Of a DNA stretch of 39,161 nucleotides, positions 3,616 to 37,018 are shown piece after piece. The DNA is taken from contig JAFZZR010000028.1 in NCBI GenBank assembly GCA_017615635.1, forward strand, positions 1 through 39,161, in the 5' to 3' direction. The translations under genes were made by a program, and so were the position numbers. Positions within the stretch are counted from its first letter, which is position 1. Every line of letters starts with the position of its first letter. Source of the stretch: Lentisphaeria bacterium (GTDB taxonomy: Bacteria; Verrucomicrobiota; Lentisphaeria; Victivallales; UBA1829). The notes under the pieces are model-generated. The model had not been told where the DNA came from. It searched no databases and saw nothing but the letters and a program-made list of their open reading frames with translations.

Positions 3616-5985
3616 ATGAAACGGAATGGAAAAAATCAATACTGCTGGGTGTCTCTTTTTCTGCTTTTGACACTCCTGCCCGGATGCGAAATGTTCCAGC
3701 GGGACAAGTCGGAGAATCCGGAGAAGAAGGAAGAGGACAGATTTGCGTTTCTGCACCGGGATGAAAAGGAAGCGGCGGCCGGAGCTATGGAACAGAAGCC
3801 GGAGAGCGATGAGGTCAAGGTGAAACAGACGGAGAAATCCGCGGTCTCCGATTCCGATCTGAAGAAGCTGGAATCGCATCCTTCCGTTCCGCGGGACGGA
3901 AAGGAGACCGCCGATCCTTCGAAGCGGACGCCGTTCTACGAGGACTTCCTTCTTCTGGACGACGGGGAGCAGACGGCGGTTTCGCTTGTCTTCAACAGTG
4001 CGCCGCTGATCGACGTGATCCCCGCGTTCGCGGATATTCTGGGCTTCAACTTCCTGGCCGATCCGGACCTGAAAAGCACGGTCACGCTCAACATCAACTC
4101 CAATATGACGAAGCGGGAACTCTGGGTCACCTTCGAAAGAATGCTCCGCATGGCGGGCGCATCCATCCGCTGCGAAGGATCGCTCCTCCGGATCGTGCCG
4201 GTCTCCAAGCTGGCGCAGCAGCCGGATCTTTCGCTGGACGAGAAGGCTCGGGAGATTTTCTGCTATCCGCTGAAGAACACCACGGCGAAGGACATGGCGG
4301 CGCAGATCAAGCCGTTTCTCGGGAAGGACGCGGCCATCGCGGAACTTGCGAAACCCAATGCGATCCTCATCTGCGACACGGCGGAAAATACGGAAAAGCT
4401 GAAACAGATCCTGGATCTTGCCGACCGGAGCGGGAAGAGCAGCTGGCCCCGTCTGGTCATGAAATGCGAAAATGTGCTGCCCAGCCGGATCGTCGCCGAA
4501 CTCAAGGAAGTGTTCCCCGTGCTCGGGTTCTATGTGGTACAGTCCACCGATGCCAGATCCAACACCGAACAGCCGGGTTCCGTCCAGCTGACCGCCGTGG
4601 ACCGGATCCAGCTCATCGTCGGATCCGCCGCCACGCACGAGGCCATAGAAGAGATCCGGAACTGGGTGACGATCCTGGACAGCGCCCTCTCCCTGGATCA
4701 GGAACGGGTTTTCGTCTACAAGGTGCTCCACGGCAACGCGGACCGGCTCCTTTCCGGATTGTCCATGATCTACAATACCACGGGCCAGTCCCTGACCATC
4801 GACAACAGTACGGGCAACGTGCGGACCACCACGGTGAACACGCAGAACACAAGCGGGAACAACACCCGGCGGACGAATTCGAGTTCCTCCATTCAGACGG
4901 GTACCAACGGGACTACCGCCAGCACACAGACCGATCAGGCATCCAGCATTTTCGAAACGCCGGTCCGGATCTTTGCGGATGGCGAACTCAACCGTCTGGT
5001 GATCCGGACAACACCCCGGACATACGCCTCCATCAAAGCCGTGCTGGATCGGCTGGATGTGGTTCCGGCCCAGGTCCTTCTCCAGGTGCTTGTGGTGGAG
5101 GTCACGCTGGATAAGAGCACGGAATTCGGACTGGAGCTTTCCATGCAGGGCACCATCGACGGCAACGTGATTGGCGGCGGCACCGATTATTCGAATCTGA
5201 ATCCGTTCACTGTCACGAAGGACAGTTCCGGCAACATCACATCCGTTCTGCCCAACGCGGAAAACGGAGGACGCGCGCTGATTTACAATCCGGACAATCC
5301 GACTCAGAAATACGGTTATGTCAAGGCGTTGGCGAAAAACGGAAACGTCAAGGTCATTTCCAGTCCCCAAGTCCTGGTCTCCAGTCACAAGGAGGCGGAG
5401 ATCTGGGTGGGCGAACGCGTCCCCTACATCGCCTCGGCCATGACGGATACCGCGTCGCAGAGCCGGACGTCCACCGTGTACAATACCACGGTGAGCTTCG
5501 AGGACGTGGGAATCCGTATGACGATCACGCCGGAAGTGACGAGTTCGGAATATATTGCGCTGGATGTGAATCAGGAGCTTTCCGGCGTGGACGAGACCGG
5601 AAAGACCTATTCCAGCAGCGTGAACTGCCCCATTTTCTGGAAACGGACCGTGGAAACCAATATGACGATCCGGAACGGGCATACCATGGTGATCGGCGGC
5701 CTGATCCAGGAAAAGCGGTCCGACGCCCTCTCCTCCGTCCCTTTCATCGCCAATATCCCGCTTCTGCGCCGTCTCTTCGGCAGCACCGACGCCAGCGCCC
5801 AGCGGTCGGAGATACTGATCCTCATCACCGGTACGGTCGTCACCGAGAAAAACCAGGTGGAGGACATGATCCGGAAGTATAACGACGCCCTGCGTTATCT
5901 CAACGCCTTCGACCGGACGCTGGGCGATCAGCCCGACGCAAACAGGCCTTTCACCGTGTTCGAAGAAGGAGATATATCCCGATGA
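3616..5985 (+). CDS. gspD: Type II secretion secretin GspD, with a lipoprotein signal
   Basis: 789 residues. The N-terminus has a hydrophobic core ending in LLPGC, a lipobox with Cys24, so this secretin is probably lipid-anchored. A Lys/Glu-rich linker is followed by N0 (about 118-195), N1 (about 205-275), N2 and N3 ring domains. N3 carries a Ser/Thr/Asn-rich loop (about 400-440). The C-terminal secretin domain (about 495-740) shows NGNVKVISSPQVLVSSHKEA, VGERVPY, a DVGIRMTITPEV core, and GHTMVIGGLIQE followed by VPFIANIPLLRRLFG, all standard secretin signatures. It forms the outer-membrane channel. A 65-base gap separates it from gspC, and it overlaps gspE by ATGA. No pilotin gene is nearby, which fits a self-targeting liposecretin. 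Confidence 0.95.
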   Translation: MKRNGKNQYCWVSLFLLLTLLPGCEMFQRDKSENPEKKEEDRFAFLHRDEKEAAAGAMEQKPESDEVKVKQTEKSAVSDSDLKKLESHPSVPRDGKETADPSKRTPFYEDFLLLDDGEQTAVSLVFNSAPLIDVIPAFADILGFNFLADPDLKSTVTLNINSNMTKRELWVTFERMLRMAGASIRCEGSLLRIVPVSKLAQQPDLSLDEKAREIFCYPLKNTTAKDMAAQIKPFLGKDAAIAELAKPNAILICDTAENTEKLKQILDLADRSGKSSWPRLVMKCENVLPSRIVAELKEVFPVLGFYVVQSTDARSNTEQPGSVQLTAVDRIQLIVGSAATHEAIEEIRNWVTILDSALSLDQERVFVYKVLHGNADRLLSGLSMIYNTTGQSLTIDNSTGNVRTTTVNTQNTSGNNTRRTNSSSSIQTGTNGTTASTQTDQASSIFETPVRIFADGELNRLVIRTTPRTYASIKAVLDRLDVVPAQVLLQVLVVEVTLDKSTEFGLELSMQGTIDGNVIGGGTDYSNLNPFTVTKDSSGNITSVLPNAENGGRALIYNPDNPTQKYGYVKALAKNGNVKVISSPQVLVSSHKEAEIWVGERVPYIASAMTDTASQSRTSTVYNTTVSFEDVGIRMTITPEVTSSEYIALDVNQELSGVDETGKTYSSSVNCPIFWKRTVETNMTIRNGHTMVIGGLIQEKRSDALSSVPFIANIPLLRRLFGSTDASAQRSEILILITGTVVTEKNQVEDMIRKYNDALRYLNAFDRTLGDQPDANRPFTVFEEGDISR

Positions 5986-7613
5986 CCGCAGGCAGCTGCC
6001 CGGCTCCTTTCGTTCCGGATGACATTTCCGCGGCCGTGCGGGCCGCCGCCGGAGCGGAAACGGAGTCAAATCCCGCCGCCGTGACAGGCGGAACACCCGC
6101 GGAACTCCGGGACGCGGATTACTCGCTCGTGCAGTCCGGCGCGCTGACGGAACAGCAGCTGACCGGGCTTTACTCGGAGAAGACGGGCATCCGGATCCCG
6201 GATGAAAGCGATCTGGAGGAACCGCTTCCCTTTCCGGAGGGCGGATTCGACTTCTTTCAGGCAAATTTCTGCGTTCCTTACGAGTGGGACGACGAATCCC
6301 TGGTCTTCCTCGTTTCCGATCCCTACAGCGTCGGGTCCCTGACCTATGCCGCCCGGAAACAGTGGAAGCGGAAGGCCGGATTCCTTCTGGCCCGGCGCAC
6401 CTGCGTGGAACGGTTTCTCTCCCGTCTGCGCGGCATGGGCGAAGAGGAATCCGGTGACGCCGCCGGACCGGATACGGACGACGAGAACACGCTCCGGAAC
6501 ATGGCGGGCGAGGCGAGGATCGTGCGTCTGGTGAACGATATTTTCACGCGGGCCATCGAAGCGGGCGCCAGCGATATCCATGTGGAGCCGGGCATGGAAC
6601 AGGTCTCGGTGCGGTGCCGGATCGACGGCGTCCTGCATGAGATCATGACCTGTCCGCTGAATCAGTTCCCCGCCATTTCGTCCCGCATCAAACTGCTGGG
6701 CGGCTTGAACATTGCGGAAAGCCGGGTGCCGCAGGACGGCCGGACGTCCATCCGTCTGGGACGCGATACGCTGGACATGCGAATCAGCACGATCCCGATC
6801 CTGACGGGAGAAAGTCTGGTGCTCCGGCTGCTGAATCAGGAGGCCCTGACATTCGATCTGACCACCCTGGGCATGACCGATTCCCTTCTGGAAAAATTCC
6901 GGACCCTGATCCGGCTCCCCCACGGCATGATCCTGGTGGTCGGACCCACCGGCAGCGGAAAAACCACCACGCTGTACAGCGTCATGCACCTTCTGAACGA
7001 CCGGACACGGAAGATCATCACCGTGGAAGACCCGGTGGAATACAAGATGCGGGGACTCTGCCAGATGCAGGTCAATTCCAAGATCGGCGTCACTTTTGCC
7101 TCCGGTCTCCGGAGCATCGTCCGTCAGGACCCGGACATCATTCTGGTCGGGGAGATCCGCGACCGGGAGACCGCCGACATTGCCGTCAATGCCGCCCTGA
7201 CGGGACACCTGGTCCTCAGCACGCTCCACACCAACGATGCGGCGGGCGCGGTGACCCGGCTTCTGGATATGGGGATCGAACCCTTCCTGGTCTCTTCCGC
7301 CCTGAGCGGCGTGCTTTCCCAGCGTCTTGTCCGGAAGATCTGTCCCGTATGCCGCGGCATTCCGGAGCAAACCGCCGCATGCCGTGCCTGCTCCCGGACC
7401 GGATTCAAAGGCCGGAGCGGGATCTTCGAACTGCTCCTCGTGAACGATGAGTTCCGGTCGGCCGTCAACCGGAGCGCGGACAGCTCCGAGCTTCAGGCCA
7501 TTGCCGTGCGGAACGGCATGACGACGCTGCGCCAGGACGCGGAGGAGAAGGTCCGTCTGGGCATCACCACGGCGGATGAAGCGCTGCGGAGCGTGGCGGC
7601 GGACAGCGAGTGA
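5982..7613 (+). CDS. gspE: Type II secretion ATPase GspE
   Basis: 543 residues. The N-terminal about 150 residues form an N1E/MshEN-like domain. The ATPase domain has Walker A GPTGSGKTT (about 321-329), an Asp box with TVEDPVEY, Walker B-type IILVGEIRDRETADIA, and a His box LSTLHTNDA. A tetracysteine zinc site follows, CPVC at about 454 and CRAC at about 467; it marks GspE/PilB rather than PilT. It powers pseudopilus assembly from the cytoplasmic face via the L-like protein. ATG 5982 overlaps the gspD stop and has a GGAG Shine-Dalgarno about 10 bases upstream. Confidence 0.96.
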   Translation: MTAGSCPAPFVPDDISAAVRAAAGAETESNPAAVTGGTPAELRDADYSLVQSGALTEQQLTGLYSEKTGIRIPDESDLEEPLPFPEGGFDFFQANFCVPYEWDDESLVFLVSDPYSVGSLTYAARKQWKRKAGFLLARRTCVERFLSRLRGMGEEESGDAAGPDTDDENTLRNMAGEARIVRLVNDIFTRAIEAGASDIHVEPGMEQVSVRCRIDGVLHEIMTCPLNQFPAISSRIKLLGGLNIAESRVPQDGRTSIRLGRDTLDMRISTIPILTGESLVLRLLNQEALTFDLTTLGMTDSLLEKFRTLIRLPHGMILVVGPTGSGKTTTLYSVMHLLNDRTRKIITVEDPVEYKMRGLCQMQVNSKIGVTFASGLRSIVRQDPDIILVGEIRDRETADIAVNAALTGHLVLSTLHTNDAAGAVTRLLDMGIEPFLVSSALSGVLSQRLVRKICPVCRGIPEQTAACRACSRTGFKGRSGIFELLLVNDEFRSAVNRSADSSELQAIAVRNGMTTLRQDAEEKVRLGITTADEALRSVAADSE

Positions 7614-7629
7614 GGAAGGACGGCGTTTC

Positions 7630-8847
7630 ATGGCTATCTACCGGTATCTGGCTTCCGAAAACGGCGATCCGCCCCGCGAAGTCCTCATGGAGGCGGAAAA
7701 TCCCGTCGAGGCGCTGGGCAAACTCCGCAGCCGCGGCCTGATCCCCGTACGTGCGCTGGGTACGGGGACCCGGGAGGGAGACCGCGCCTTCGCCTTGCGG
7801 CGTTCCGGGATCGACGTCTACGGATTCACCCGGCAGCTGGCTCCGCTTCTTTCGGCTTACATTCCTCTGGAAAAAGCGCTGTCGATCATTGCGGAAAGCG
7901 CAAAAAAGGAGGAACAGCGTAACTTCGTGCTTTCTCTCCGGCAGGGACTCCATGAAGGCAAGAAATTCTCGGAACTGGTGCGCTCGCACGGGTCTCTGTT
8001 CCCCGGCTACTATGCAAACCTTATCGAAAGCGGCGAGGAGACAGGCAGTCTTCCGGAATCGGTGCGCCATCTTTTCCAGTTTATGACGGAAAGCCGGGAT
8101 CTGCGCAGCTTCCTGATTTCCAGTTCCATTTACCCATGCGCCATTCTCTGCGTCACCCTGCTGGTCACGATCCTCATGTTCACCGTGTTCGTTCCCCGGT
8201 TCGCCAGAATCTTCGAAGACATGGGCCGGACTTTGCCCCCCTCCATGGAGTTTCTGCTGGCGGCGGGTGCGTTTTTCCGGTGGCTGCCCCTGCTGATCCT
8301 GGCGGCCTGGCTGGCGCACCGGCTGATCCGGCATCTGATGGGTCCGGACGCCTATCGTTTTCATGTGAGCCGTCTTCTTCTTTCCGTTCCGGTGCTGGGC
8401 AGGATCATTTCCGATCTGGAGATGTGCCGCTGGATCCGGACTCTCTCCATCATGCTTTCCAATCATGTGGAGATCATACGGTCGGTCCGGATCGCGGAAA
8501 AGATTTTGTACAATCCGGTGATCTGCCGTGCTTTTCAGGGGATCGCCGAACGGATCCGGGGCGGCGAAAAACTGTCGGCCGTCTTGCGCAGCAACACCTT
8601 TCTGCCGGCCGAGATGACCCCGATGCTCCGCGTGGGCGAGGAGTCCGGGGCCGTAGGCGAAATGCTGACCCGGATCGCGGATAATCTGGAGGCGGACACC
8701 CGGCAGAAGATCAAGCGTCTGCTGAGTCTGTTCGAACCGGCGGTGATCGTTTTACTGGCGGCGGCCGTCCTGACCGTCGTCGTTTCGATTTTTATGGCTA
8801 TGATGGATTTGAACTCAGTCAACGTACAAGGAGGTCCCGGACTATGA
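7630..8847 (+). CDS. gspF: Type II secretion platform protein GspF
   Basis: 405 residues from ATG 7630 (MAIYRYLASENG), chosen over an in-frame ATG at 7576 because the latter lies inside gspE and the usual GspF N-terminus (MxxYxYxAxxxxG) begins here; AGGA lies upstream. Two T2SSF domains (about 55-175 and 260-380) share the pattern of helices with ESGEETGSLPE and GEESGAVGEMLTRIA, the duplicated GspF signature. Three membrane segments are visible, near ILCVTLLVTILMFTVFV, WLPLLILAAWL and VIVLLAAAVLTVVVSIFM. It is the polytopic inner-membrane core that rotates or extrudes pseudopilins. It starts 16 bases after gspE and overlaps gspG by ATGA. Confidence 0.95.
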   Translation: MAIYRYLASENGDPPREVLMEAENPVEALGKLRSRGLIPVRALGTGTREGDRAFALRRSGIDVYGFTRQLAPLLSAYIPLEKALSIIAESAKKEEQRNFVLSLRQGLHEGKKFSELVRSHGSLFPGYYANLIESGEETGSLPESVRHLFQFMTESRDLRSFLISSSIYPCAILCVTLLVTILMFTVFVPRFARIFEDMGRTLPPSMEFLLAAGAFFRWLPLLILAAWLAHRLIRHLMGPDAYRFHVSRLLLSVPVLGRIISDLEMCRWIRTLSIMLSNHVEIIRSVRIAEKILYNPVICRAFQGIAERIRGGEKLSAVLRSNTFLPAEMTPMLRVGEESGAVGEMLTRIADNLEADTRQKIKRLLSLFEPAVIVLLAAAVLTVVVSIFMAMMDLNSVNVQGGPGL

Positions 8848-9275
8848 AAATCCAATCTGAAAAACGTGCAAAAAAAAGAATGCCGTTCACCCTTATCGAG
8901 GTTGTCGTCGTCATCGTCATCCTCGTCACCCTGGCCGGCATCGCCACGCCTGTCTACATGAACTATGTGAAGCAGGGACGGATCGGCACCGCGAAAATGC
9001 AGCTGAAGCTCCTGGGACAGGAACTGGACAACTACAAGATCCGCGTAGGGCAGTATCCTTCCGAGTTGCGCGGACTGGTGGAAAATCTGGACGGCCACGA
9101 AAAGTGGGACGGCCCCTACATGAAGAAGATCCCGCTGGACCCCTGGGGGAACGAATATGTTTATGTAGTTCCCGGCGAACATAATACGGACACCTACGAT
9201 CTTTCCTGTCTCGGCGCCGACGGACAGTCCGAAGGAGAAGGGGAGAATGCCGATATCAATAACTGGGACGACTGA
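8844..9275 (+). CDS. gspG: Major pseudopilin GspG
   Basis: 143 residues with a short basic leader, then FTLIEVVVVIVILVTLAGIATPVY, the type IV pilin N-terminal helix with Glu at +5. The C-terminal part has the GspG-specific DPWGNEYVYVVPG and LGADGQSEGEGENADINNWD calcium-loop region, so it is the major pseudopilin. The residue before the expected cleavage is Pro (KKRMP/FTLIE), not Gly, which is unusual for a prepilin peptidase substrate. The start has an AGGAGGT Shine-Dalgarno and overlaps gspF by ATGA. It overlaps gspH by 29 bases. Confidence 0.95.
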   Translation: MKIQSEKRAKKRMPFTLIEVVVVIVILVTLAGIATPVYMNYVKQGRIGTAKMQLKLLGQELDNYKIRVGQYPSELRGLVENLDGHEKWDGPYMKKIPLDPWGNEYVYVVPGEHNTDTYDLSCLGADGQSEGEGENADINNWDD

Positions 9276-9765
9276 AAAGCGGCTTTTCTTCACGCTCCCG
9301 GAAGTCATTGCCGTCATGGCGATCCTTCTCGTGCTGGCCGCCATGGCCGTTCCCATGCTCCGGTCGCCTTCCGCCTCCTCCCGCATGGAAGAGACCGCTC
9401 TCGAATTCCAGGCGTTTTGCGCCCGGGTCCGCTTCCAGGCCGTGGAGAAGGGCGAGGACCGCGCCGTCTGTTTTGATCCGGCCTCGAACGAATTCTTTCT
9501 TTCGGATCCCGCCGATCCCGAAGCCGAACGATCCTCCATACGCTGGAAACTGCCGGAAGGTTTCGAATATTCCCGGGAAACGGCACTGAACGCCGAGCCG
9601 GAAGGGGACAGCGTGGAGCTGTTCCGGTATTATCCCGACGGCGGCGCCTCCGGGACCCGCGTGCTGGTCATGCGGTGCGGCAACGTGCGCCGGGAGTTCC
9701 GGATCTCGCTGCTGACCGGTCTTCTCACCAGCCGAGAACTCGGCGAAGAGGAGGACGTTCCATGA
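9247..9765 (+). CDS. gspH: Minor pseudopilin GspH
   Basis: 172 residues. The leader MPISITGTTEKRLF is followed by FTLPEVIAVMAILLVLAAMAVPML, a pilin-type N-terminus with Glu +5 and Phe instead of Gly at -1. The beta-rich C-terminal domain, with a VLVMRCGNVRREFRIS strand and the ending LLTGLLTS, fits GspH/FimT (general secretion pathway GspH). It overlaps gspG by 29 bases and gspI by ATGA, so the pseudopilin genes are translationally coupled. GspH is a minor pseudopilin near the tip. Confidence 0.88.
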   Translation: MPISITGTTEKRLFFTLPEVIAVMAILLVLAAMAVPMLRSPSASSRMEETALEFQAFCARVRFQAVEKGEDRAVCFDPASNEFFLSDPADPEAERSSIRWKLPEGFEYSRETALNAEPEGDSVELFRYYPDGGASGTRVLVMRCGNVRREFRISLLTGLLTSRELGEEEDVP

Positions 9766-10187
9766 TGGTCCGCCGGAAAAAAGGTTTCACTCTGCTGGAA
9801 ACGGTAGTGGCCGTGGCCGTGCTGGTCATGTCCCTGGGAGTCCTGTTCCAGCTGGCGGCGTCGGCCCGGAAACGGATCGCGCAGGCGGCCGAGGACTGGA
9901 ATACGACCCATCGTCTTCTGGAGGCCGCGGAGTACGCGCTTCTCCACGGGAACGGAGTGGAGACCGTACCCGAACGTTTTTTCCCCTACGAAGACTGCCG
10001 GACAGTCATCACCTGGGAGGAAATGGACGACGTCCACGAACAATACACCATGAACGGGATCGCGGGACAGCCCGAACTTCAGGCCTGCACGATCCAGCTC
10101 TACCGTCTCTCCGACGGCAAGGAACTGGACCGCCTGACGATCGACAGGATCCTCTACGACAATGCGCTCACCGAAACGGAAAACTGA
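9762..10187 (+). CDS. gspI: Minor pseudopilin GspI
   Basis: 141 residues from ATG 9762 (MMVRRKKG), chosen because an upstream in-frame ATG at 9675 lies in gspH and would bury the leader. The leader MMVRRKKG/FTLLETVVAVAVLVMSLGVL is the one fully canonical class III signal among G-J, with Gly at -1 and Glu at +5. Length and position between H and J fit GspI, which nucleates the I-J-K tip complex. It overlaps gspH by ATGA and gspJ by 26 bases. Confidence 0.87.
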   Translation: MMVRRKKGFTLLETVVAVAVLVMSLGVLFQLAASARKRIAQAAEDWNTTHRLLEAAEYALLHGNGVETVPERFFPYEDCRTVITWEEMDDVHEQYTMNGIAGQPELQACTIQLYRLSDGKELDRLTIDRILYDNALTETEN

Positions 10188-10860
10188 AAAGCGGTTCTTC
10201 ACGCTGGTCGAACTGGCCGCGGCCCTGACGGTCGCAGGCTTCGTCGTCCTCATTACCGGTACGGCCGCCATGTCCTTCTGGAAAACCTGGGAAGCGGCGT
10301 CCGGCCTGACCGCCCGGCTGGAAGAGTACAGAAAGATCGATACCGTCATGGATACGCTGGTCCGCAACGCGGTCCCCTTCAACTGGACCGACAGGGACGG
10401 GACCAACGATACCTCCTCGGATCTTCTCTTCGACGGACAGGAGGACGAACTGTTCTTCACAAGTCTCCGCCGTGCCTATGCCGGATCCGAAGGCTCTCTT
10501 CTCTTCGTCCGGATCCGCCTGGAAGAGGACGGCGATCTCGTGGCCGACTGCTCCCTCTTTCCCCGGTTCCCCTGGCTGGTGAATGACGAGGACGACATGC
10601 CCTGGACCCGCGAAGTCCTGGCTCGGAAAGTCCGGTCCGTCTCCTTCCTCTATGCGGACCGCAGCGAGAACGGAGAACTGGAATGGGAAGAGGCGGAGTG
10701 GGACAGAGAAGAAAAAAGCTTTCTGCCTCTGGCGATCCGCATGACTGTGGTCTGGGAGGACGGCACCGAAGAATCCTGGCTCCGCCGGACGGCCGGCAGC
10801 GGCGCCAGCAGCGTGTTCGGCGACAGGATGAGCGCCGCACAGGGGAGCACAACACGATGA
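10162..10860 (+). CDS. gspJ: Minor pseudopilin GspJ
   Basis: 232 residues. Leader MRSPKRKTEKRF is followed by FTLVELAAALTVAGFVVLITGTAAM, a pilin-like helix with Glu +5 and Phe at -1. The rest is acidic, with LLFVRIRLEEDGDLVADCSLFPRFPW and a late EEWLRR-like strand region as in GspJ-type pseudopilins. GspJ binds GspI and GspK at the tip. The gene overlaps gspI by 26 bases and gspK by ATGA. Assignment rests on order and length; pseudopilins diverge strongly outside the leader. Confidence 0.85.
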   Translation: MRSPKRKTEKRFFTLVELAAALTVAGFVVLITGTAAMSFWKTWEAASGLTARLEEYRKIDTVMDTLVRNAVPFNWTDRDGTNDTSSDLLFDGQEDELFFTSLRRAYAGSEGSLLFVRIRLEEDGDLVADCSLFPRFPWLVNDEDDMPWTREVLARKVRSVSFLYADRSENGELEWEEAEWDREEKSFLPLAIRMTVVWEDGTEESWLRRTAGSGASSVFGDRMSAAQGSTTR

Positions 10861-11942
10861 CCCGGATCGCTTTATACCGCAGACAGGCAAGACTCCGCCT
10901 TCGGAGGGAAGAAGGAACCGTCCTGATTCCCGTGCTGGCGGTCATCGTCTCCTGTTCTCTGATCGTTTCCGCCCTGATGGCCCTCTCCCAGCTGGGTACT
11001 TCGGGCATGGCGGCGCACACGCGTCTCCAGAAATCCGCCTATCTCTGCGAAGGCGCTCTCAACCGGGTCCAATGGCTTGTCGCCGCCGACCGGGCCACGT
11101 CTCCCGGCACGTCCCTGCTCTATTTCGATTACGCGGATTACGAATACGAGCGGTTTCCGGCCGACGGCGCGGAGCATGTCATGGACTACCACGGAATCCC
11201 GGTGAAATTCGTCATCACGGACGCCGCCGCCGGACTCGATTTCTCCCGTCTCTACTGCAGGACCACGGTGCGGCGTCTGGCCGCCGATCCCTCGGCCGAT
11301 TCCGAGTATCTGGATCAGGTGGAACAGTTTTCCGAACTCCTTTCCGACTACGTGGATTCCGACGATACCATTGCGGAGGACGGAATGGAAAGCGCCGACT
11401 ATGAAGATTCCGGGCGGAGACCGCTTCCGCGAAACGGCGAACTCCAGTATCGGGAAGAACTCTTCTGGATACCCGGCTTTACCGATCTTTTCCCGCCCGA
11501 CCGCGGCGGACGGCTTTCCTCTGTCCGCGTCATTCCGCCCAATTCCATGATCTCCACCGGCTCTTCGGGACAGGGACAGGGCGGCGGCTCCTCCTCGTCC
11601 AACTCGCTCTTTACGCAGAATCCGAATCTCTTCGGCGCCGGGGATTTCTATCTCCGGTACGTCTGCAAACTGGAAGAGGACGAGCTGGCGCAGGTCCGGG
11701 AAGCCATTCTTCTGTATCAGACGGAACGGGTCCCCCTGCAGGACTCCATCGAGGGAACTCTCTTCACAAAGCTCCTGAACAATTTGAACTGGTCGCAGGG
11801 ACAGACCGTCACCGTGGTCGTCGATCCGGCCGCCGCCGGGAGCGGTCCCTCCAAACGGCTGGCCGCAACCTGGACTGTCTCCGACAGCGCGGCAGGCCCG
11901 ACGGACGGCGTCGTCCGGTATCTGGAGTGGATGTTCTTCTGA
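10857..11942 (+). CDS. gspK: Minor pseudopilin GspK
   Basis: 361 residues from ATG 10857 (MTRIALYRRQ), chosen over an in-frame ATG at 10683 that lies within gspJ. The leader RREEG/TVLIPVLAVIVSCSLIVSALM has Gly at -1 and no Glu at +5, as is usual for GspK. The large globular domain includes FSRLYCRTTVRR, a segment with SELLSDYVDSDDT, and EELFWIPGFTDLF, which resembles the GspK helical insertion that caps the pseudopilus. A Gly/Ser-rich stretch lies at about residues 235-250. It is the last gene of the operon; only 6 bases separate its stop from that of the convergent DUF362 gene, and I see no terminator there. Confidence 0.88.
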   Translation: MTRIALYRRQARLRLRREEGTVLIPVLAVIVSCSLIVSALMALSQLGTSGMAAHTRLQKSAYLCEGALNRVQWLVAADRATSPGTSLLYFDYADYEYERFPADGAEHVMDYHGIPVKFVITDAAAGLDFSRLYCRTTVRRLAADPSADSEYLDQVEQFSELLSDYVDSDDTIAEDGMESADYEDSGRRPLPRNGELQYREELFWIPGFTDLFPPDRGGRLSSVRVIPPNSMISTGSSGQGQGGGSSSSNSLFTQNPNLFGAGDFYLRYVCKLEEDELAQVREAILLYQTERVPLQDSIEGTLFTKLLNNLNWSQGQTVTVVVDPAAAGSGPSKRLAATWTVSDSAAGPTDGVVRYLEWMFF

Positions 11943-17892: not shown

Positions 17893-18612
17893 TTATTGAT
17901 TGTAGAGGTATACGCCGGGCGATTTGTGCCCGCGGAAGAACAGCGTTCCGGTCCTGTCTTCGATGTACTTATCCCGTGTATCCCGCAGTTTCTGTAAATC
18001 GCTGCCCGCCACGTGCCCGTCAAAAAATCCGGCATTGAGCGTCCGTTTGGAATGACGAAAGATATTCAGATACTCTTCACCGGCTTCGCTCACGTAACTG
18101 CGGTCCTTGTTGCGGGAATCCATGATCGTTGCGGTGGCGGCGGGATATTTCACTTTGGATACCTTGGGCAGTTTTTTGATGTCAGTTGCTGTCGGGGTGA
18201 TGAACAAATTCAGCCCGTAAGTGATGTAAAAGCCGAATGGATTCGGATGAAAATACGGTCCCCAGGTTTCGCCCGGATAAGATTCCGAGGAAGGACAGAA
18301 AAACGGCGTGGCGGTGGTCGGCTTGTCATGATCGCCGAGACCGACCCCGATCTGATTTCTCATTTTACTTACCCAGATGGAATCGGTGTTGGAACAGGCG
18401 TAAGGCATCATGAATCCATCATAGGTATCCGAATAGGCGAGATACCCGTAGGACAACTGTTTCAGATTGGAAAGACAGGTGCTCTGCCGCGCGAATTCCT
18501 TCGCTGAAGAAAGAGCCGGCAGAAGCATACCGGCAAGGATCGCGATGATGGCGATGACCACCAGCAGTTCGATGAGGGTAAATCTTTTTCCGGTTCTTCG
18601 TGTCAGGTTCAT
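17893..18612 (-). CDS. H-X9-DG-type pseudopilin-like protein 1
   Basis: 239 residues. Leader [10 protein letters not shown] precedes [20 protein letters not shown], a type IV pilin N-terminus with Glu +5 but Arg, not Gly, at -1. The mature part has [23 protein letters not shown], and a C-terminal [18 protein letters not shown]. The latter is the prepilin-associated H-X9-DG motif with one extra residue. Such proteins are PulG-like and very numerous in Lentisphaerota and Planctomycetota; the role of individual copies is unknown. Its ATG overlaps the LacI stop by four bases, and the glycoside hydrolase follows 45 bases downstream, so regulator, pseudopilin and enzyme form one operon. I infer a role in export or surface display of that enzyme. 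Confidence 0.88.
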
Positions 18613-36283: not shown

Positions 36284-37018
36284 TCAGTTGGAACTGCTGA
36301 CGGACTGGGAAAACGGTGCGCCGTTCTTGTAGTAGATATTCACCGTCTTGTTTTCCACGCCGGAATTGTACATGCCCGCGGCATTTTCAAAATATCGGTT
36401 CGCATCGATGGACTGCACGCTGCCGTCCAGACATGCCACGTTGCCCTTGCCGTTGTGGATCAGGTGAAAACGGTAGTCGGCAACAAGTTCCAGATAAATG
36501 CTGCCGTAAGGACGAATGAGGTTGTCGGCTCCATCGAGGAACACCATGTAACTGGAGGGCTTTTTCGCTTTGCTGACGTTGACTCCGCGAGTATAAACGG
36601 TATTTGCGGGGTTATGCTTAATCCATATGGATCCGGTGCAGTTGCTGGTCAGCAGACTTCCGTAGACAAAGTCATCGACATTATCGTCTGCGTAATTGGA
36701 CCTTCTTTTTGCATCCAGTGCGCTGGGACAAACCATCAGATTGGGATCCTTGGGGGGAAGATACCCGAATTCCGGGAATTTGTGCGTCCACCTCTGGGTT
36801 TTACCGCTGGCGTTGGAAATCAGCGCCAGCTGCCCGTTGAAGGCGTCGGCATACATGAATCCGGCAATACTGATCTGCCTCAGATTGTTCATGCAGTTGG
36901 TCTGCTTCGCCGTCTCCTTCACCTTGCTCAGCGAGGGCAGAAGCATACCCGCGAGAATCGCGATGATGGCTATGACGACCAGCAATTCGATCAGCGTAAA
37001 CGACGATCTCTTTCTCAT
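36284..37018 (-). CDS. H-X9-DG-type pseudopilin-like protein 2
   Basis: 244 residues. Leader MRKRSS precedes [20 protein letters not shown], with Glu +5 and Ser in place of Gly at -1. The body has [22 protein letters not shown], and the C-terminal [18 protein letters not shown] contains an exact H-X9-DG motif. It is paralogous to the protein at 17893-18612 in leader and motif, while the central regions differ. Several Cys (NCMNN, MVCPSA, SNCTGS, VACLDG) suggest disulphides and an extracytoplasmic location. It lies 39 bases downstream of the lipoprotein glycosidase and upstream of the GH106-like gene, so again a pseudopilin sits inside a carbohydrate-degradation unit. Start supported by AAAGGAAAA. 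Precise role unknown. Confidence 0.88.

Follow-up and report, generated by a model that had tools for sequence, protein, structure and literature searches.

The 39,161-nucleotide window analysed here, contig JAFZZR010000028.1 of the Lentisphaeria bacterium assembly GCA_017615635.1, carries a type II secretion system (T2SS) operon and two genes for H-X9-DG pilin-like proteins, and the pseudopilins of the operon and the H-X9-DG proteins begin with leaders of the kind removed by prepilin peptidases. Gly (or Ala) directly before the cleavage site, at position -1, counts as a defining feature of these class III signal peptides; the published rule is cleavage after Gly or Ala, and a motif used for their prediction is [GAS]-X4-[DE] (PMC3244431). 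Most leaders in the window lack both residues at -1. We examined this departure in the source genome, in its class and phylum, and in relation to the PilD-type peptidase that probably processes these proteins.

The operon genes stand in the order GspD-E-F-G-H-I-J-K, with D, E, F, G and K recognized by family matches and H, I and J by weak matches and position (Table 1). GspG alone among the pseudopilins G to K scored above an equivalog cut-off (TIGR01710), while H, J and K were assigned from weaker matches together with gene order. The GspG leader, MKIQSEKRAKKRMP (8844-8885), ends in Pro and is followed by FTLIE, with the Phe+1 codon at 8886. The GspH leader, MPISITGTTEKRLF (9247-9288), has Phe at -1 before FTLPE from 9289, and the GspJ leader, MRSPKRKTEKRF (10162-10197), has Phe at -1 before FTLVE from 10198. 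GspI has the sole canonical F-T-L leader of the set (MMVRRKKG, 9762-9785, Gly at -1, then FTLLE). Phe+1 and Glu+5 are thus present in GspG, H, I and J and Gly/Ala at -1 in GspI only, which lowers the claim of the T2SS pseudopilins to the motif, not their homology. In GspK, Gly precedes Thr (RREEG/TVLIPV; here and below the slash marks the -1/+1 boundary), and without Phe+1 or Glu+5 this protein lies outside the FTLxE set. The H-X9-DG proteins have Arg (leader 18612-18583) and Ser (leader 37018-37001) at -1. The initial annotation had read the same -1 residues in these seven leaders, five of them without Gly, and the sequence bears this out; its statement that FTL(I/P/V)E and Glu+5 are kept holds for GspG, H, I, J and the two H-X9-DG proteins and fails for GspK. 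The TIGR02532 model (cut-off 16.3 bits) was passed by GspH and both H-X9-DG proteins, in alignments that begin only at model position 4, the positions on the leader side being unmatched. As a side observation, Phe-Phe closes the GspH and GspJ leaders (LF/FTLPE, 9247-9289; RF/FTLVE, 10162-10198).

Table 1 T2SS operon and pilin-like genes in the window.
Feature	Position	Strand	Evidence
GspD secretin (operon context)	3616..5985	+	TIGR02517, E 5e-101, 339 bits, slightly below the 351-bit cut-off
GspE ATPase (operon context)	5982..7613	+	PF00437, E 2e-131
GspF inner-membrane protein (operon context)	7630..8847	+	PF00482, E 9e-50; TIGR02120, E 3e-89, below cut-off; start codon picked by hand inside open reading frame 7576-8847
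GspG major pseudopilin	8844..9275	+	TIGR01710, 119 bits (cut-off 88.85); PF08334
GspH-like minor pseudopilin	9247..9765	+	TIGR01708, below cut-off; TIGR02532, over cut-off; operon position
GspI-like minor pseudopilin	9762..10187	+	PF07963 (generic N-methylation motif), E 7e-6, over cut-off; operon position
GspJ-like minor pseudopilin	10162..10860	+	TIGR01711, below cut-off; operon position
GspK-like pseudopilin	10857..11942	+	PF21687, over cut-off; NF037980, below cut-off; gene order
H-X9-DG / DUF1559-type pilin-like protein	17893..18612	-	PF07963 and PF07596, over cut-off
H-X9-DG / DUF1559-type pilin-like protein	36284..37018	-	PF07963 and PF07596, over cut-off

Leaders in the source genome, the class and the phylum

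An FTLIE(L) DNA pattern run over the 3.72 Mb source genome (G000) found 213 FTLIEL sites, and the reversed pattern used as a control found none. Gly stands at -1 in 17 of the 213 leaders (8%; binomial p=0.60 against an assumed background of 7.2%), which is about chance level. We read out 113 of these leaders, taken from stretches selected by match density together with the 30 best TIGR02532 matches, a sample that over-represents Gly leaders since those best matches were fetched first. The -1 residue was Arg in 33, Gly in 17, Ser in 15, Asp in 7, Phe in 6, Asn in 6 and one of ten other residues in the rest, and -2 was Lys in 60. Cleavage specific for Arg was considered and rejected because, although Arg leads at -1 in this set, 15 other residues occur there as well. 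All of the 150 candidates scored with TIGR02532, out of 227 in the source genome, were above its cut-off. The genome holds at least 213 FTLIEL-type genes, some with near-identical recurring leaders (e.g. L079, L085, L086, L088, L090, L095, L096); 15 of 150 such genes lie within 400 bases of a contig start, where 3.3 would be expected, which suggests that the assembly broke where 5' ends are repeated.

Across 119 genomes of the same class, apparently Lentisphaeria to judge by named relatives of the class PilD that include Victivallis vadensis and Lentisphaeria metagenome-assembled genomes, Gly was at -1 in 351 of 7,074 FTLIEL sites (5.0%); the median was 3.6% for the 89 genomes that had 20 or more sites. 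The value in 102 genomes of the same phylum outside the class was 272 of 434 sites (62.7%), chance matches and Ala leaders included. In seven low-Gly outside genomes that were inspected (G148, G164, G206, G219, G222, G224, G239), the non-Gly remainder was mostly Ala, with some chance matches in non-pilin open reading frames.

For the T2SS, GspG-anchored loci gave 150 leaders from 47 class genomes and 65 leaders from 17 outside genomes, under a leader pattern that required a hydrophobic residue at +1 and Thr, Ser or Asn at +2 in both groups alike. Gly or Ala was at -1 in 24/150 class leaders and in 65/65 outside leaders (Fisher 3e-35), and Gly alone in 10/150 and 55/65 (Fisher p=2e-30); these and the following p-values treat leaders as independent although they are related, and the contrast is that of one class with its relatives, to be counted as a single event whose pattern is very clear. 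Because the remaining 10 of the 65 outside leaders have Ala, and G, A or S are all accepted in published motifs (PMC3244431), the Gly-only yardstick of the initial annotation should read Gly or Ala. The commonest -1 residue in class T2SS leaders was Phe (20/150); other -1 residues used in the class include Arg, Pro, Ser, His, Lys, Cys, Asn, Tyr and Asp. At -2, 66/150 class leaders had Arg or Lys, whereas 42/65 outside leaders had Ala, Ser or Gly. Phe+1 and Glu+5 were essentially invariant in the class, with Phe+1 in 149/150 class and 55/65 outside leaders (p=3e-5); a looser scan, from which five GspF fragments were removed by eye, gave 136/137 and 47/52 (p=0.006). Entropy at -1 was 3.71 bits in the class, as variable there as in the remaining leader, and 0.62 outside; at +1 it was 0.06 and 0.77, respectively. 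The source genome and its congener G001 differ at -1 in all of G, H, I and J (P/C, F/H, G/K, F/Y), while their FTLxE boxes agree except at +4. Two or more T2SS leaders were recovered in 43 class genomes, and in 23 of these genomes none of the leaders had Gly or Ala at -1.

The class PilD and relaxed choice at -1

The source genome encodes three A24 enzymes: a PilD-type enzyme that includes an A24_N domain, and two short enzymes, each about 188 amino acids long. Its PilD (L101:7160-8323) matches the A24 catalytic domain (PF01478, E 3e-13) and the N-terminal methyltransferase domain A24_N (PF06750, E 5e-32), and has the zinc-site residues C43, C46, C68 and C71 as well as the catalytic D124 and GWGD196; the four Cys and D124 recur in all 50 class PilDs compared, and D196 in 49. 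An A24_N match was found in 58 of 59 sampled genomes, nearly always as a single match, and many class genomes have one A24 enzyme only. The structure predicted, with high confidence, for the source-genome PilD is a helical membrane protein (mean predicted local distance difference test score 90.9) whose fold had no match in the PDB at E <= 0.001, and a phmmer search with this PilD returned matches to the repeat tail only. This long, low-complexity C-terminal tail has KPNQPAQN-type repeats; the closest relative (L029, from G001) is much shorter.

In a quick search tree, in which the class is not rooted as ancestral or derived, class and outside PilDs are divided by one branch (Shimodaira-Hasegawa-like approximate likelihood ratio test support 95), as expected under vertical inheritance and one change. 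The loss of the Gly/Ala preference was apparently a single event, and Gly/Ala at -1 was presumably ancestral, given its near-universal use elsewhere. At least four class genomes (G008, G012, G015, G028) have no Gly/Ala T2SS leader, no match to Flp (the prepilin of Tad pili) and an intact PilD; some such drafts are not complete, and they may contain further Gly substrates. Retention of an intact PilD there argues for the use of non-Gly substrates, short of proof.

From these sequences we think it probable that a class PilD with relaxed -1 specificity handles both the T2SS pseudopilins and the H-X9-DG proteins. An ordinary, vertically inherited PilD-type peptidase would process the class T2SS pseudopilins and the large H-X9-DG family after it ceased to select for small residues at -1, and probably at -2 as well; Phe+1, the FTLxE segment and the boundary between basic leader and membrane would place the scissile bond, and nearly any residue would be tolerated at -1. 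Variability falls sharply exactly between -1 and +1, which fits a cut at that bond, and we infer that the cut is at the canonical bond, that PilD is its agent and that Phe+1 is the successor recognition residue. Relaxed specificity is favoured because PilD is intact even in genomes without a Gly/Ala T2SS leader and without a Flp match, and because the loss is class-wide and apparently one event. Of the two options in the initial annotation, altered specificity or cleavage elsewhere, the former is therefore the better supported, in the form of relaxation with both catalytic aspartates kept, although the wording that the specificity "must" have changed was too strong, loss of cleavage being a formal alternative.

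The class enzyme resembles bacterial PilD/GspO (MEROPS A24A) in its two domains (A24_N and Peptidase_A24), four Cys and two Asp with GxGD, and its putative substrates resemble theirs in the basic leader, Phe+1, Glu+5 and hydrophobic N terminus. It differs in that the class substrates are unconstrained at -1 rather than Gly/Ala (neither residue in 126/150 candidate T2SS substrates, judged by leader sequences) and often have Arg or Lys at -2 rather than a small residue. Archaeal PibD, an enzyme without the bacterial A24_N domain, shares the same aspartate chemistry. A review describes PibD as more flexible near the cleavage site than FlaK (PMC4307647); its likeness to the class PilD is drawn from that description. 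Gram-positive and other prepilins with Ala at -1 are also a natural departure from Gly, one shared by the outside-class genomes here, but they use small residues only, whereas the class uses many kinds.

Several observations weigh against relaxed specificity of PilD. The prepilin peptidase gene whose comparison the initial annotation had proposed was located, but no specificity-determining residue was found when 50 class and 29 outside PilD sequences were compared. Of the 50 class PilDs, 46 have lost Trp209 (GxGD+13), but the source genome, G001, G028 and G034 retain it despite their non-Gly leaders, and other class-specific columns likewise fail as necessary causes. Conservation of Phe+1 may reflect assembly or methylation and not recognition, and the minority of source-genome leaders that keep Gly could be the sole cleaved ones. 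The contrast between class and outside is one phylogenetic event, with which any class-specific trait would correlate, and the case for cleavage at non-Gly leaders is made from sequence and not from protein. By helix length, Trp209 would in any case lie about 20 Angstrom from the catalytic Asp, and we regard it as a correlate only. Gly137, also tried as a cause, is present in 26/29 outside and 0/50 class PilDs, but the source-genome PilD has Pro at this position, like P. aeruginosa PilD, and the Gly therefore probably just marks the lineage of the outside set. Many columns and groupings were inspected, so one or two striking columns are expected by chance.

Alternative explanations

The non-Gly leaders might not be cleaved at all; the proteins would then stay signal-anchored in the membrane, and processing and assembly would be confined to the minority with Gly or Ala. 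In gonococcal pilin, replacing Gly at -1 by Ser (G-1S) prevents cleavage by PilD (PMC4877100), and PilD could be retained solely for the roughly 8% of source-genome leaders that keep Gly. We nevertheless consider this unlikely, since no Gly/Ala leader, that of GspG included, was recovered in the 23 of 43 class genomes mentioned above, since the PilD aspartates are conserved even where Flp was not detected, and since an anchor that is never cleaved would have no evident need for invariant Phe+1 and Glu+5. A cut elsewhere, either at an upstream Gly/Ala in the leader or downstream in the LAG-M region, is more doubtful still. On the shortest reading 49 of the 113 source-genome leaders carry Gly or Ala upstream, and many H-X9-DG proteins have a Gly near +18; the other 64 leaders, however, have neither residue anywhere, and therefore no canonical upstream cut is possible in those, which removes the initial annotation's second option for them. 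After an upstream cut, moreover, basic residues would still precede Phe+1 and Glu would no longer be at +5, and conservation changes abruptly exactly at the -1/+1 boundary.

Processing by another, unrecognized peptidase, for example of the TadV type, with a different role for PilD, is highly improbable in our view. It draws on the two short A24 enzymes of the source genome and on TadV enzymes adjacent to Flp prepilins with His or Arg at -1 in several class genomes. PilD is, however, found in nearly all sampled genomes, many class genomes have a single A24 enzyme and no Flp match, and the source genome's own Flp keeps Gly (EERG/AVMMEY). That the pattern is an artefact, whether of metagenome assembly, misassigned start codons or random matches, has a negligible probability. 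The source genome is indeed a draft (204 contigs, 88.7% complete, 4.45% contaminated), but the pattern recurs at orthologous positions of the operon in 47 independent genomes of the class and is also seen in single-contig genomes (e.g. G025, G047); the choice of start codon is irrelevant to a residue adjoining the conserved FTLxE box, and both the class-wide leader count and the comparison of T2SS operons contradict such an origin. Relaxed specificity of PilD thus remains the reading that we prefer.

Flp prepilins, TadV and a possible second switch

The Tad/Flp system with its peptidase TadV/CpaA belongs to the same A24 protease fold family, and a Flp sub-family of the class is likewise non-Gly at -1; TadV differs from PilD in lacking the N-terminal methyltransferase domain, and most class Flp prepilins keep Gly or Ala (48/61, two evident false matches removed). 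The sub-family, KK(H/R)/AVMMEYVII with His or Arg at -1, occurs in at least 12 class genomes, usually in pairs (Tad loci L313-L326), and adjoins a distinct TadV (RAAGAGDVKMLFAAGLxAGP). Flp therefore failed in part as a clean within-class control. The TadV counterpart of Trp209 is Tyr, Phe or Trp in 15/19 enzymes and Pro in 10/10 aligned TadVs beside His/Arg Flp prepilins. This sub-family is likely a second, separate case in which the class abandoned the Gly rule, although its processing by PilD instead is possible.

Our search of the literature on Lentisphaerae and prepilins found no account of this leader pattern, with most subscription journals outside the search and prior notice possible. 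If it holds class-wide, motif predictors such as [GAS]-X4-[DE] would overlook the majority of pilin-like proteins in the class, and sister lineages set apart by a single enzyme trait would be a natural experiment on P1 choice by a presenilin-related intramembrane aspartate protease. We suggest tentatively, at somewhat less than even odds, that a class-wide peptidase which ignores P1 and relies on an invariant Phe at P1' and an independent, similar change in TadV are two natural specificity switches; if so, the two together would help to map what reads Gly at -1. Isolated Flp prepilins beside Gly/Ala Flps have Tyr at -1 (RRSY/ATFVEY, L289, G018:C23) or Met at -1 (NRSM/ATFIEY, L292/L328, G244:C20).

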